NCBI GenBank assembly: GCA_021735405.1
Contig: JAIPHC010000005.1
Coordinates: 1-32,156 of the forward strand
Direction: 5' to 3'
Origin: Candidatus Omnitrophota bacterium
GTDB lineage: Bacteria > Omnitrophota > Gorgyraeia > Duberdicusellales > 4484-171
Length of the DNA: 32,156 bases
The notes below the pieces were generated by a model. The model searched no databases. It was not told where the DNA came from and worked only from the letters and a program-made list of their open reading frames with translations. Below are positions 17,023 through 24,068 of this stretch, piece after piece; position 1 is the stretch's first letter, and each line of letters begins with the position of its first letter. Made by a program: the position numbers and the translations under genes.

Positions 17023-18120
17023 TTATGTTTTCATTGGTAAAAGCAAGTAAGTGTGGTTTTCTCTTTTGATAACCGCTGGCTTTTCTGTCCCGAAAAAATC
17101 AATTGTAATTTCTTGGTCTTTTATTTGTTTTAAGATGTCGATAAAATAATTTGGGTTAAACTCTATCTCCAGCGCCGGCCCTTGGTATTTTGTGTTTATC
17201 TCTTCTTTCGCCTCCCCTAACTGAGGTGTTGTTTTATAAACTATCATTTTGTTTTTCTTAAGGCTGAACTTAACCCCTTGGTATTCTGCTGTGGTAAGCA
17301 GCCCGATCCTTCTTAAAGAAGCTGTAAAATCATTTTTATCAACAGTTAGTTGATTCCCTTTTTGTTTAGGTATATATTGCGAGTAGTTAGGGAAATCACC
17401 CTCTATCGGGCGGGCAATAATTTTTGTTTCTTTAAAATCAAATTCTATGTTCTTTTTTGAAAACGATAAATAAAAAGGGTTTTGTTTTTCTTTGGTTATC
17501 CTTGCTATTTCCCCCACTGTTTTATTAGGTAAAATAAAAGCTATTTTTTCTTCTATTTCCGCTTGGTTATCGGGAAAATCCCTCGCGGCGCAAGAAAGCC
17601 TTTTACCGTCGGTGGCAACCAATTTTATTTTATTTCCTTTAATCTCAAACAACACCCCGCTTAAGACATAATTAACATCTTCGTAGCCGGCGCAAAAAGA
17701 AGTTAACCTAACCATTTCTTCTAAAGCTTCCGGCAGCATTTTTATGGTAACCGCTTCTTTTTTTTCTTGAATCCTGGGGAATTCTTCTTCTTTTAGCGTG
17801 TTTATCTTAAACTCAACTTTTTCACATTTTATTAAGAGGTTGTTTTTAACTTTTTCTAAATTTATTTTAGTATCGGGCAGCTCTCTGGCAATAGAAATAA
17901 ACCTGCGCATTGGCACCAGCGCTTTCCCGGGTGTTTTTATATCCCCTTTGGTTTGAGTGGTTATGGTTAAATTAAGGTCTGTGGTTATAAATTTAATTTG
18001 GTTTTTTTCTGTAGTAATTAAAACACTGCTTAATGCAAGAAAGTCTTGTTTGGTTGTGGTCGGGCCGACTACACTCTTTAAACTCTCTACTAAATCTCTT
18101 CTATCAATAATTAAATTCAT
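17023..18120 (-). CDS. dnaN: DNA polymerase III subunit beta (sliding clamp)
   Basis: Sliding-clamp-like MNLIIDRRDLVESLKSVVGPTT...ALSSVLI, FPRIQE, LSGVLFEIKGNKIKLVATDGKRLS; location next to dnaA. Start moved from ORF M at 18180 to MNLIIDR at 18120. Confidence 0.95.
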   Translation of the reverse strand: MNLIIDRRDLVESLKSVVGPTTTKQDFLALSSVLITTEKNQIKFITTDLNLTITTQTKGDIKTPGKALVPMRRFISIARELPDTKINLEKVKNNLLIKCEKVEFKINTLKEEEFPRIQEKKEAVTIKMLPEALEEMVRLTSFCAGYEDVNYVLSGVLFEIKGNKIKLVATDGKRLSCAARDFPDNQAEIEEKIAFILPNKTVGEIARITKEKQNPFYLSFSKKNIEFDFKETKIIARPIEGDFPNYSQYIPKQKGNQLTVDKNDFTASLRRIGLLTTAEYQGVKFSLKKNKMIVYKTTPQLGEAKEEINTKYQGPALEIEFNPNYFIDILKQIKDQEITIDFFGTEKPAVIKRENHTYLLLPMKT

Positions 18121-18216
18121 AGTATTAGTATAAGTAGTTCTTGTTAAAACTGTTAACTTCTGTTTTTGTGTAATAAACACCTAAAGAAAAAAGATTAAAA
18201 CAAGTAAGAAAGATTA

Positions 18217-19563
18217 TCATAAGTTTTTAATTTCCTGTGTAAGGCTGTTAACGGTTGTTTTTAATTTATCATCTTTAGGCAAAGTTTTTTTAATTTTTTT
18301 ACAAGCGTATAAAATATTGGTATGGTGCTTTCCTCCAAAAAAACTGCCTATTTCAGGAAGCGAGTTTTCTGTCAACTCCCTGGTTAGATACATAGCCACC
18401 TGCCGCGGCAAAACCAAAGTTTTGCTTCTTTTGTTTTTTTTCAGGTCTTCTTTTTCAACGCCGAAAAAATTACTAACCCTAGTTAAAATAACATCAGGAG
18501 TAACCCTTGCGCCAATTTCTTTAACCATGTCTTTTAAAATCCCTTTAGCTAAATCAACAGTTATTGTTTTGTTTTCTATCAACGAGTAAGCTATGATTCT
18601 TACCAAAGCGCCTTCTAATTCACGGATGTTTGATGAAATATTTTCTGCTATAAAACGGATAACTTCCGGTTCTACCTTTACTGCTTCATTTTCTAGTTTT
18701 TTCTCTAATATAGCTACTCTGGTTTCATAGTCCGGAGGCTGGATATCAACCACCAAACCCCAGTTAAACCGGGAAACCAGCCTTTCTTCTAAGTCGGGGA
18801 TTTCTTTAGGCGGCCGGTCCGAAGACACGACAATTTGCTTATGGTGGTCGTATAACACATTAAAGGTATGGAAAAATTCTTCTTGGGATGCCTCTTTGCC
18901 CGATAAAAACTGGATATCATCAATTAATAATATATCTATCTCTCTGTATTTTTTTCTAAACTTATCAGTGTTTCTCTGCCGGATAGAAAGAATCAGGTCA
19001 TTAGCAAAGCTTTCGGAAGAAATATATTTTACTCTTGTTTGGGAATTTAAAGAAAGCAAATGGTTAGAGATGGCTTGCATAAGGTGGGTTTTCCCCAACC
19101 CGACTCCTCCATAAATAAAAATAGGGTTGTATGATTTCCCCGGAGCTTTAGATACAGCCAGAGATGCGGCGTGGGCCATTCGGTTTGAAGAGCCAACCAC
19201 AAAGTTATCAAAAGTAAAACGAGGGTTAAGGCGCAAAGATGTCTGGCTTTTTTCCCCAAAACTTTTGTTGAAGGAGCGGAAAATTTTTGTGGTCTTACTC
19301 TTCAAAATCCCCGGATTGACTCTAAACTCTATGGTTATTTTTTTCCCGGATACTTTCTCAGAAACTTCCTCCAAAGAAGAAAGGTAGTTGCTTTCTACCC
19401 AGCTCTTAAAAAAACTGTCGGGAGCTTCTAAAACTAAACAGTCCCGCGAAGCTTCTTTTAATTGCAGCGGCGATATCCACGTGTCAAAAGAAGTCTCCCC
19501 TAACCGGTCTCTAAGCTTTTTTTTACAATTTTCCCAGATATCTTTTTTCATGCCTGTTTTCAC
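18217..19563 (-). CDS. dnaA: Chromosomal replication initiator protein DnaA
   Basis: NPIFIYGGVGLGKTHLMQAISNHLL, IDILLIDDIQFLSGKEASQEEFFHTFN, SRFNWGLVVDIQPPDYETRVAIL, PRQVAMYLTRELTENSLPEIGSFFGGKHHTNILYACKKI. Confidence 0.98.
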   Translation of the reverse strand: MKTGMKKDIWENCKKKLRDRLGETSFDTWISPLQLKEASRDCLVLEAPDSFFKSWVESNYLSSLEEVSEKVSGKKITIEFRVNPGILKSKTTKIFRSFNKSFGEKSQTSLRLNPRFTFDNFVVGSSNRMAHAASLAVSKAPGKSYNPIFIYGGVGLGKTHLMQAISNHLLSLNSQTRVKYISSESFANDLILSIRQRNTDKFRKKYREIDILLIDDIQFLSGKEASQEEFFHTFNVLYDHHKQIVVSSDRPPKEIPDLEERLVSRFNWGLVVDIQPPDYETRVAILEKKLENEAVKVEPEVIRFIAENISSNIRELEGALVRIIAYSLIENKTITVDLAKGILKDMVKEIGARVTPDVILTRVSNFFGVEKEDLKKNKRSKTLVLPRQVAMYLTRELTENSLPEIGSFFGGKHHTNILYACKKIKKTLPKDDKLKTTVNSLTQEIKNL

Positions 19564-20319: not shown

Positions 20320-21768
20320 ATGGAAAAAAGAACACTTTTTGCATTTCTTCTCTTGATTGGATTTTTCTTGGTTTGGTCGCAGTTTGCCCCAAAGCAATCT
20401 ACGCAACCTGTTGATAATCAAGAAGTTAGCACTGATACTTTAAATAATTCAATTCAAGAACAAACCCGGCCGCAGTCAACAGAGCCGGCTCAAAACCGCT
20501 TACCCTTCGAGGCAGGCGCCTTAGAAGAAACAAGGATCGGGCCTTATTATATTACCTATTCTAGTAAGGGGGGCTACCTTCATTCAATTGCTCTCAACAC
20601 CCCCGCCAACACCCTGCCTTTTCAGGATTTGGGTTTTCAGCCCTCTACCCAAAATATAAACTATAGGGTTAGTATTAATCAAAACACTATTTCTTTTCTC
20701 AGCCAAGATTCTCCTCCCAAAAAGTTTGTTTTTAAGGGTGATATTGTTGAGGTAAAAAACATTGACAACTCCTCTATTTTATTTTTCTCTTTTCCTCTCG
20801 ATTCAGCGAAATCCCACATTAGTAAACGTTATTTTGAATCGTTTTATAAAAAAGGCGATTCTCTTGAACGCAGGCACCCTAAAAAAGTTCAAAATGAGAA
20901 ATATTCAGAAGTAAGATTTGCCGGGGCAAGAAGCCGTTATTATGCGATTAGCCTGCTCCCAGACAGCTATAATCTTGAATTAACAAAAAAACAAAAAAGA
21001 GCTAATTTCTATTTAGATAATCCTCCATCAACAATATCTTTTTATCTTGGCCCGCAGGTGGCCAAAGAGATGGGAAAATATGGCTTAGAAGAGATTGTTT
21101 ATTATGGATTTTGGCATTTTCTCGCGGTTGGAATCATAAAAGTTTTATATTTTTTCTACAGTTTTCTCCATAACTGGGGATTAAGCATAATTTTCCTTTC
21201 TTTTTCCACCTACGCGCTTCTTTTTCCTTTTACCTCCAAAAGCACCCAGGCAATGAAGAAGATGCAGGAAATTCAGCCTTTGATGCAGGAGTTAAAGGAA
21301 AAACATAAAGATAACCCTCAAAAAATGCAGAAAGCAACTGTAGAGTTATATAAAAAGCACAAGGTCAATCCTTTAGGGGGCTGCCTTCCCCTTTTGTTTC
21401 AATTTCCCATAATTATCGCTTTTTATCAAGTGGTTTTTAGATTCAGCCGTCTTCAAGGGGCTTCTTTTCTTTGGATTAAAGATTTGTCGATGCCGGACAG
21501 GCTTTTTCGCCTCCCCTTTGCTATTCCTGTTGTAGGTGTGGAGTATTTTAATCTTTTGCCCATTTTGGTAATGGCTTTAGGCCTTATCCAGCAGCACATA
21601 ACAGCTTCATCCTCAAATCCCCAACAGAAAAAAATAGGATTATTTATGGGGGTTTTTATTGGGATAATTTTTTATAAATTTCCTTCTGCCTTAGTTTTAT
21701 ACTGGTTTGTCCAGAATTTGCTTACCCTTCTTTACCAAGTCCGGCTAAAAAAAGCCCGCACCACCTAA
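20320..21768 (+). CDS. yidC: Membrane protein insertase YidC
   Basis: N-terminal TM plus periplasmic domain; LHNWGLSIIFLSFSTYALLFPFTSKSTQAMKKMQEIQPLMQELKEKHKDNPQKMQKATVELYKKHKVNPLGGCLPLLFQFPIIIAFYQV. Confidence 0.97.
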   Translation: MEKRTLFAFLLLIGFFLVWSQFAPKQSTQPVDNQEVSTDTLNNSIQEQTRPQSTEPAQNRLPFEAGALEETRIGPYYITYSSKGGYLHSIALNTPANTLPFQDLGFQPSTQNINYRVSINQNTISFLSQDSPPKKFVFKGDIVEVKNIDNSSILFFSFPLDSAKSHISKRYFESFYKKGDSLERRHPKKVQNEKYSEVRFAGARSRYYAISLLPDSYNLELTKKQKRANFYLDNPPSTISFYLGPQVAKEMGKYGLEEIVYYGFWHFLAVGIIKVLYFFYSFLHNWGLSIIFLSFSTYALLFPFTSKSTQAMKKMQEIQPLMQELKEKHKDNPQKMQKATVELYKKHKVNPLGGCLPLLFQFPIIIAFYQVVFRFSRLQGASFLWIKDLSMPDRLFRLPFAIPVVGVEYFNLLPILVMALGLIQQHITASSSNPQQKKIGLFMGVFIGIIFYKFPSALVLYWFVQNLLTLLYQVRLKKARTT

Positions 21769-21820
21769 AAAAATCAGCCAAAACCAAAAACGCTTATTTT
21801 TCAAGGCCTTTCTGCGTTTT

Positions 21821-22336
21821 CACGTGGAAACTCTCGTCATTTTAGCAATTGAGAGTTTCCACGTGGATCTTTCAGCTCTCTTTTGTAGCTGGAAAGATAC
21901 ACGTGAAAACCTTATTATTGCCGTTGCGAGCGGAATGAGCGAAGCGAATGAAACGAAGTAGTCTCTCTATGGTGTCATCCTGAGGAGCTCCGGGCTCAAA
22001 AGCTGCGGAAGCGACGAAGGATCTCCCGCTTTAGCGGGACCCCGCTATATAAATATGGGAGCGGGGAATTCGGCTACATCCGCCTCTGGCGGATAAGCCT
22101 CATTGAGATTCTTCGGCTTCGCCTCAGAATGACATTAAGGTTGTTTTGTCTTAAGTGGTTAGCGGGAAAAGTCCACGTGCCAATTTCTTCCGTATAGGCG
22201 ATTAAATTGCCATATGGAAACGCTCCAGCGTTAGCATAAGAGAGTTTTCACGTGCACTTTTCGCATTCACCAATCGAGCGGAAAAGTCCACGTGGAAATT
22301 GTCTGGAGATTAAGCAGAAAAGACAATTTTCACGTG
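21821..22336. promoter_or_regulatory. Cluster of seven parS-like CACGTG palindromes upstream of parAB
   Basis: CACGTG cores at 21821, 21860, 21900, 22174, 22249, 22289, 22331; site 7 is TTTTCACGTGAAAA, close to the Bacillus-type parS core TTTCACGTGAAA. Confidence 0.75.
21974..22133. repeat. REP-like palindromic element, copy B, lying inside the parS-like cluster
   Basis: GTCATCCTGAGG ... GATTCTTCGG ... CCTCAGAATGAC with internal hairpins (CCCGCTttAGCGGG, ATCCGCCtctGGCGGAT); ends match copy A. Confidence 0.75.
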
Positions 22337-22415
22337 AAAACGCTAAAACTCCCTGATTCTATTAACGATTTTCATTTTCGCTGTTCATTTTTAACTAAGG
22401 CAGGGATAAAAATAG

Positions 22416-22444
22416 TTGCAATTTGGCCAAGATAGTATTAAAAT
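22416..22444 (+). promoter_or_regulatory. Candidate promoter of parA
   Basis: TTGCAA - 17 nt - TAAAAT, ending 8 nt before the parA ATG at 22453. Confidence 0.4.
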
Positions 22445-22452
22445 GAAAAAAC

Positions 22453-23244
22453 ATGGGTAAAATAATCGGCATTTGCAATCAAAAAGGCGGGACTGGTAAA
22501 ACTACTACCGCTATTAATTTTAGTTCGTTTTTAGGGCTGGCGGGGGAAAAGACGCTTCTTATCGATATGGATCCGCAGGGGAATGCTTCTTCAGGAGTGG
22601 GGGTAGATCCTCAAGATAAGAATTCAGTTTATGAGGTGATTTCCGGAGATCTTTCCGTCGAAGAGGCAATTTATTCTACTGATTGGCCCAATCTCTCGGT
22701 TATGCCTTCGGATATCTCTCTTACCGGGGGAGAAGTTGAGCTGGTATCTTTAGCTAATCGAGAAACTCTTCTGCGCCAAAGCCTTGAGAAAATTAAGGAC
22801 CTTTATTCTTATATAGTTATCGATGCCCCGCCGTCTTTGGGACTGCTTACCGTTAATGTTTTGTCTGCCGCAGACAGCTTACTTATACCGATACAATGCG
22901 AATACTATGCCTTAGAGGGAGTTTCAAAACTAGTCCAGACGGTGGAGCTTATAAAAGAAAGGTTGAATCCCGAACTAGAAATAGAGGGGGTTTTATTGAC
23001 TATGGCTGATTTCCGGACTCGGCTTACTTTGCAGGTGATAGAGGAAGTAAAAGCTTATTTTCAAAGTAAAGCTTTTCGCATTATTGTGCCGAGAAACGTA
23101 AAATTAGCCGAAGCTCCCAGTTTTGGCAAACCAATTCATTTTTATGATTCAAATTGTGTAGGGGCAAAAGCCTATTTAAGTTTAGTTAATGAAGTTAGAG
23201 GACAAGGCAAAGATTCAGTTAATTTTGCAAAACAAAGAGGTTAA
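22453..23244 (+). CDS. parA: Chromosome partitioning ATPase ParA/Soj
   Basis: GICNQKGGTGKTTTAINFSSFLG, LLIDMDPQGNASSGVG, YIVIDAPPSLGLLTVN. Confidence 0.97.
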   Translation: MGKIIGICNQKGGTGKTTTAINFSSFLGLAGEKTLLIDMDPQGNASSGVGVDPQDKNSVYEVISGDLSVEEAIYSTDWPNLSVMPSDISLTGGEVELVSLANRETLLRQSLEKIKDLYSYIVIDAPPSLGLLTVNVLSAADSLLIPIQCEYYALEGVSKLVQTVELIKERLNPELEIEGVLLTMADFRTRLTLQVIEEVKAYFQSKAFRIIVPRNVKLAEAPSFGKPIHFYDSNCVGAKAYLSLVNEVRGQGKDSVNFAKQRG

Positions 23245-23246
23245 TT

Positions 23247-24068
23247 ATGGGTAAAAAAGTATTAGGGAAGGGGCTGGACGCCTTAATTCCCAAAAAGAAG
23301 ATTTCTGGGGGAGACCGATTCGTCTATATTCCGGTAAAAAAGGTTGATCCCAACAAATTTCAGCCGCGTAAGGATATGAACCAGAAGGACTTAGCTGAAC
23401 TAACTCGATCGATTAAAGAAAAAGGGTTTATCCAGCCGATTTTGGCCCGGGATACTAAAGAGGGGAGATATGAAGTTGTAGCCGGCGGAAGAAGGCTGGA
23501 GGCAGCTAAGTTATTGGGCATCAAGGAGATACCCGCAATAATCCGTGATTTGGACAATAAAGATTCTTTTACGGCCGCGATAGTTGAAAATTTACAGCGA
23601 AAAGACCTTAACCCTCTTGAAGAAGCCCAGGCTCTCCAGCGCCTAAAAGACGAATTTAACTTTTCTTTAGACGAAATCGCTCAATTTGTAAGTAAAGATA
23701 AAACCACTGTTTTAAACACAATTCGCCTGCTCAAGCTTCCCGAAAAAGTTAAAAGCGCTTTAGAAAAAAAACTGATTAATCGAAGCCAGGCGAGGACAAT
23801 ACTTTCTTTTAAAAGCAAAAACCAACAGGAAAAGGTATTTTATAAAATTTTAGAAAAAGGCCTTACGGTAAGGGATGTGGAAAAACAAGCGTTCCGGAAA
23901 AACAAGAAGGCAAAGACAGATCCTTTTATCGAAGAAGCCCAGGAGCATCTGCAAAAAAAATTAGGGACGAAAGTAAAAATTACCAGCTCAAAAAACAAAA
24001 GGGGCAAAATCACTCTTCATTATTACAACTTAAATGATTTCGAAAGAATTATTAAACGAATTGGCTAA
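23247..24068 (+). CDS. parB: Chromosome partitioning protein ParB/Spo0J
   Basis: LGKGLDALIP, NKFQPRKD, VVAGGRRLEAAKLLG, AAIVENLQRKDLNPLEEAQALQRL, helix-turn-helix SLDEIAQFVSKDKTTVLNTIRLLKLP. Confidence 0.97.
   Translation: MGKKVLGKGLDALIPKKKISGGDRFVYIPVKKVDPNKFQPRKDMNQKDLAELTRSIKEKGFIQPILARDTKEGRYEVVAGGRRLEAAKLLGIKEIPAIIRDLDNKDSFTAAIVENLQRKDLNPLEEAQALQRLKDEFNFSLDEIAQFVSKDKTTVLNTIRLLKLPEKVKSALEKKLINRSQARTILSFKSKNQQEKVFYKILEKGLTVRDVEKQAFRKNKKAKTDPFIEEAQEHLQKKLGTKVKITSSKNKRGKITLHYYNLNDFERIIKRIG

Follow-up and report, generated by a model that had tools for sequence, protein, structure and literature searches.

The window (the whole stretch of DNA analysed here, 32,156 nucleotides) is contig C47 of an 861-kb Omnitrophota assembly and carries, in order, dnaN and dnaA on the minus strand, yidC, a 684-bp gap, parA and parB. 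The adjoining parA and parB, the latter with ParB_N, HTH_ParB and dimerisation domains, have the make-up of a ParABS system, and ParB retains both CTP-binding motifs (GxxRxxA as GGRRLEA and ENxxR as ENLQR). Chromosomal ParABS systems usually have few, dispersed parS near oriC, and ParB sites normally read as simple 16-bp palindromes. Here, the yidC-parA gap harbours an array of CACGTG sites that begins at 21821, about 2 kb from dnaA (dnaN/dnaA, 17023-19563) and thus close to the origin. A promoter-like TTGCAA..TATTAAAAT at 22400-22452, conserved in the genus, lies past the last site and before parA. The features are as follows.

20320-21768, plus strand: yidC, membrane protein insertase (Pfam 60KD_IMP, E=6.6e-52), preceding the array
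21814-21826, plus strand: outer left parS half GCGTTTT with site 1 CACGTG (21821-21826)
21821-21865, plus strand: unit 1-2, type A hairpin with a perfect 15-bp stem (covariance model E=9e-12)
21860-21905, plus strand: unit 2-3, type B hairpin (GATCTTTCAGCT / AGCTGGAAAGATA) with one bulge
21906-22161, no strand, approximate limits: insertion, a mosaic of dispersed genomic repeats (TGTCATCCTGAGG...CCTCAGAATGACA)
22162-22179, plus strand: leftover half of a B unit (gcgggaaaagtc) with site 4 CACGTG (22174-22179)
22174-22216, minus strand: decayed unit from site 4 to CATATG (CCAATTT / AAATTGC)
22211-22254, minus strand: inverted type A unit that reaches from CATATG to site 5, with partly mismatched arms (E=1.1e-7 with the covariance model, which this unit had itself helped to build)
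22249-22294, minus strand: unit 5-6, type B, present in exact reverse complement in the related genome G004
22289-22336, minus strand: unit 6-7, type A, 16-bp arms with one mismatch (covariance model E=1e-10)
22331-22343, plus strand: site 7 CACGTG with outer right parS half AAAACGC
22453-23244, plus strand: parA (Pfam AAA_31, E=6.4e-62)
23247-24068, plus strand: parB (Pfam ParB_N, HTH_ParB and ParB_C; Spo0J 1vz0 match, E=3e-44)

CACGTG occurs eight times in the window (1.0 expected) and 13 times in the genome, with seven of the 13 in the yidC-parA gap (at 21821, 21860, 21900, 22174, 22249, 22289 and 22331); the five copies on other contigs were inspected, and none is parS-like. A preceding sequence-only reading had placed the seven sites, and a CATATG at 22211, correctly, and all the arms that it quoted are present (15/15 between sites 1 and 2, bulged between 2 and 3, imperfect between 5 and 6 and with one mismatch between 6 and 7). 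Its description of a chain of consecutive hairpins holds for most neighbouring sites, but not for sites 3 and 4, whose 274-bp interval is due to the insertion. The CATATG that it took for a decayed member does have matching arms with site 4, and the stretch from CATATG to site 5 is in addition a unit of its own; the chain thus reads A-B-(insert)-?-A-B-A. The insertion has 17 matches in its own genome, several of them 90-100% identical, and an insertion with 83% identity sits at the same place in G004. The outermost halves, GCGTTTT and AAAACGC, are mutually complementary, so that the entire array closes on itself.

Of 58 relatives, 52 yielded a ParB, and their upstream gaps were compared. The yidC-(array)-parA-parB order is conserved among them, and CACGTG sites with RAAAC half-sites occupy the yidC-parA gap of nearly all genomes of the family. 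The canonical 16-bp parS palindrome TGTTTCACGTGAAACA is absent from the array; the family consensus is GTTTTCACGTGAAAAC, with one extra A before C in each half, and by this comparison the array sites are variant rather than canonical parS. The parS/centromere reading is thus well supported by position, parAB and half-site consensus, and the array is probably the chromosomal ParB-loading site, or centromere, of one genus of uncultured Omnitrophota; as ParB is of the ordinary chromosomal type with intact CTP motifs, the array is most probably where it loads.

The ParB residue at the position of Caulobacter R173, which contacts base 1 of parS (PMC7383237), is K in all readable members of the family of the window genome (f1), where parS is longer by one A per half, and the sister family f2 keeps R together with GTTTCACGTGAAAC; K for R plus the longer parS half looks like a co-evolved shift in ParB specificity. 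Another genus of the family carries four near-identical 44-bp tandem parS repeats (L182, G034:C4:1-250) without such linking hairpins, and a distant class member (L157, G043:C9) has many TGTTCCACGTGGAACA sites about 46-70 bp apart beside parAB.

The units of the array measure 31-36 bp between sites, the sites lie about 40 bp apart and the stems are about 15-16 bp long including CACGTG. Two types alternate along the arrays: type A, (A/G)AAA(C/T)NNNN-loop-NNNN(G/A)TTT(C/T), whose arms are parS halves, and type B, GATAT/GATCT/GACTT...ATATA/AGATA/AAGTG, whose arms are not. Because of this alternation most inner CACGTG sites join a good half to a poor one. P. aeruginosa ParB binds half-parS in vivo, although such binding was not observed in B. 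subtilis and Caulobacter shows it weakly (PMC10419367); array sites with one good half may therefore still count. CACGTG-centred palindromy at positions 1-5 is 3.00/5 in the genus vs 4.48 in the rest of the family, and sites that lost palindromy across the site have kept pairing across the spacer: the B arms changed jointly (ATAT/ATAT, ATCT/AGAT, ACTT/AAGT). CACGTG-centred palindromy was also considered as a driver and rejected (genus at chance, 1.45/5; family slightly higher, 2.02/5).

Arm positions 1-5 pair between any two parS sites, adjacent parS always being inverted repeats, yet an origin of the hairpins by chance or as a by-product of parS symmetry is hardly credible and is refuted by the pairing at arm positions 6-10 (81% in the genus vs about 34% in controls) and by B arms that are not parS halves. 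For the genus, every distinct spacer of 26-48 bp that separates one CACGTG from the next was scored without selection (n=14), and 4.07/5 of these positions matched, vs 1.72/5 in the parS pairs of other genomes (n=18) and about 1.6/5 in chance pairs from viral contigs (n=139); a scan of these contigs for triples of CACGTG gave 120 stretches whose arms match no better than chance and which served as control. In the parS pairs of other genera, whose half-site arms are also inverted and whose spacing is similar, pairing did not reach past the half-site. Within the six window units, 19/24 matched at arm positions 6-9, vs 6.1 in shuffles that retained the first five bases of each arm (0/50,000 reached 19). 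The single strand of 21811-22345 (535 nt) folds with z=-12.0 as DNA and z=-11.2 as RNA, part of which is owed to the insertion between sites 3 and 4. The hairpin layout of the spacers is real.

The genus sample consisted of five genomes, apparently all draft metagenome assemblies: G000 (the window genome) and G001 to G004, of which G001 has plain parS sites only and the other four have hairpins. The array repeats assemble poorly, and G002 carries two partial copies of the locus. The finest array is that of G002 (contig C129), which runs A-B-A, a 118-bp interval and A-B-A-B-A with a spacing of 37-41 bp; G004 has A-B, the repeat insertion and A, and in G003 a degenerate B is followed by an A-like unit and then A-B. 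The complementary arms and compensated changes that the sequence-only reading had proposed to look for in orthologous yidC-parA gaps are accordingly present in G002, G003 and G004. Units also occur inverted among relatives: reverse-complemented, window unit 5-6 matches a G004 unit exactly, in a gap that is otherwise just 79-84% identical, and window unit 2-3 recurs in G003 reversed and almost unchanged, the three differences lying close to the loop.

The units were aligned (15 in total, manually turned to one orientation), among which two with a degenerate border were taken in for their unit-like look and from which some other decayed candidates were omitted. In this alignment, which lies within a single genus and takes in related units, 96.2% of stem cells are paired, both sides have changed in 37 cells (vs 10.9 in shuffles) and a single side in two, and the covariation score is 0.486 vs 0.163 when shuffled and at most 0.143 when slid. 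Arms match their own partner and not the partners in other units: those of A units do so in 71/72 cells (0/20,000 permutations as high) and those of B units in 43/48 (115/20,000), and G-U (G-T) cells number only two among 210. Of the 15 units, 13 have a mismatch at the base adjoining CACGTG, mostly A-C in A units and G-A in B units; this base is flanked by pairs on both sides, with mismatches in only 6/120 cells at positions 2-9.

The sequence-only reading had held that compensatory covariation would support selected hairpins. The covariation is there, but template switching between inverted repeats during replication is reported to give one-event stems, multi-base compensated changes, arm homogenisation and spacer inversion (PMC8794818, PMC8604942), so compensated changes by themselves are no proof of selection. 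Multi-base compensated changes and spacer inversion were both found among the relatives, and the unit flips, missing G-T intermediates and unalignable A stems fit template switching, the near-absence of G-T intermediates being as expected of arm copying in one step (PMC8794818). Whole-arm homogenisation was not found, given the mismatched first arm base; copying through the stem should repair the base beside CACGTG, so either selection protects it or the stems changed base by base. Moreover, since the parS pairs of other genera are not homogenised past the half-site, template switching alone is insufficient for the genus.

The account that we prefer, at about even chances, is that the parS array expanded as A-B dimers and that its spacers are kept self-complementary via template switching, probably with some selection. 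The array would have grown as an 80-bp A-B dimer was duplicated in tandem; neighbouring sites being inverted repeats, template switching or recombination would copy arm onto arm and flip spacers; this copying would let each spacer drift in sequence yet stay a DNA hairpin; and a modest selective benefit would retain the geometry and the mismatch beside CACGTG. The array, its hairpins, their covariation, the A/B alternation, the inversions and the presence or absence of a dimer are observed; that ParB binds the sites, that template switching is the leading force and that there is a modest benefit are inferences.

Ranked second, and tentative, is that the hairpins are purely selected, as short cruciforms in supercoiled origin-near DNA or as single-stranded folds during replication, with the 15-16 bp stems and the mismatch serving ParB loading, ParB clamp confinement or SMC recruitment. 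The uniform geometry (units of 31-36 bp, stems of about 15-16 bp), the A/B alternation, the 96% pairing, the mismatch kept in 13/15 and the B arms that departed from the parS half-site together and still pair all speak for it, but the plain parS sites of G001 show the hairpins to be dispensable, and they are absent from all other genera examined. Rather doubtful is the specific form of a centromere whose inter-site DNA is selected to form hairpins, in which half-sites would coevolve across the spacer and not across the ParB site, the stem-base mismatch would be conserved and ParB loading or retention would depend on an extruded or single-stranded fold.

Very improbable is a mobile hairpin element, resembling the mitochondrial double-hairpin elements, that would insert at CACGTG and end up bordered by CACGTG on either side; the sequence-only reading had raised an element propagating via CACGTG ends. 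Its best case is G003, which reads ...gaaggaggcgtttt-CACGTG-A-CACGTG-B-CACGTG-aaaacgct... where G001 reads ...gaaggatggtttt-CACGTG-aaaacgcc... and which is thereby longer by an 81-bp A+B dimer, exactly from CACGTG to CACGTG, precisely within a parS that is plain in G001. However, two copies of CACGTG always form a direct repeat, and slippage or recombination between them is enough for gain or loss of a dimer, so that no element is required. Neither the covariance model nor scans for CACGTG pairs recovered units outside the parA locus in the genomes of the genus, and the search for CACGTG-stem-loop-CACGTG units elsewhere that had been suggested came out negative there. The weak matches that the covariance model gave at other places in the family come from parS pairs or from palindromes of no relation, and among 384 phylum genomes nothing convincing was found beyond the genus; matches in G175 and G215 were rejected as plain parS pairs and those in G427 and G032 as unrelated palindromes. 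With hairpins confined to one locus and no extended pairing in the parS pairs of other genera, a roaming element is unlikely and largely refuted. A dispersed REP-like small palindromic repeat with ends TAGACGTCCTA...TAGGACGTCTA and a variable interior was also seen (G001:C35:4671-4705, G002:C13:31487-31533, C34, C64 and C80), with one copy inside the parS gap of G001.

Very improbable, too, is that the array is transcribed and works as structured RNA, for example as a parA leader. It lies upstream of parA and folds well as RNA (z=-11.2), but it matches no Rfam family (tRNAs are the only matches in the window), G-U cells are nearly missing and relatives carry units in both orientations; in addition, the conserved promoter-like sequence between the last site and parA would leave the array outside the parA transcript.

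Pairing has here moved from within the parS site to between sites, and it covaries strongly across several species. Two possibilities follow: DNA hairpins are put to use by a centromere, or arrays that look exactly like selected structure can be built and maintained where template switching acts on inverted binding sites of a protein, in which case caution is due for all covariation arguments.

Hairpin-linked parS arrays were the subject of no paper found in the open-access literature, and the layout is apparently undescribed. Like chromosomal ParABS, the locus has parAB beside the sites, a CACGTG core, RAAAC half-sites and a position 2 kb from dnaA; unlike it, the array is tight (about 40 bp), each inner site has one poor half and the spacers are hairpins. 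Mitochondrial double-hairpin elements are dispersed hairpin pairs with variable stems and presence/absence between relatives; the array shares the pairing of hairpins, the variable stems and the presence/absence, whereas its hairpins are confined to one locus. In F plasmid parS (sopC), twelve 43-bp tandem repeats carry inverted-repeat motifs for ParB (PMC6238139). Both arrays have tandem ParB sites at near-equal spacing beside a par operon, but the F repeats are direct copies of one sequence, while here only CACGTG and the half-sites recur and the spacers differ, each being self-complementary. With template-switch (quasipalindrome) hairpins, finally, the array shares multi-base compensated stem changes, spacer inversion and few G-T intermediates; the described cases (PMC8794818, PMC8604942) concern RNA genes and yeast coding DNA, whereas here an array of protein-binding sites carries one lasting mismatch.
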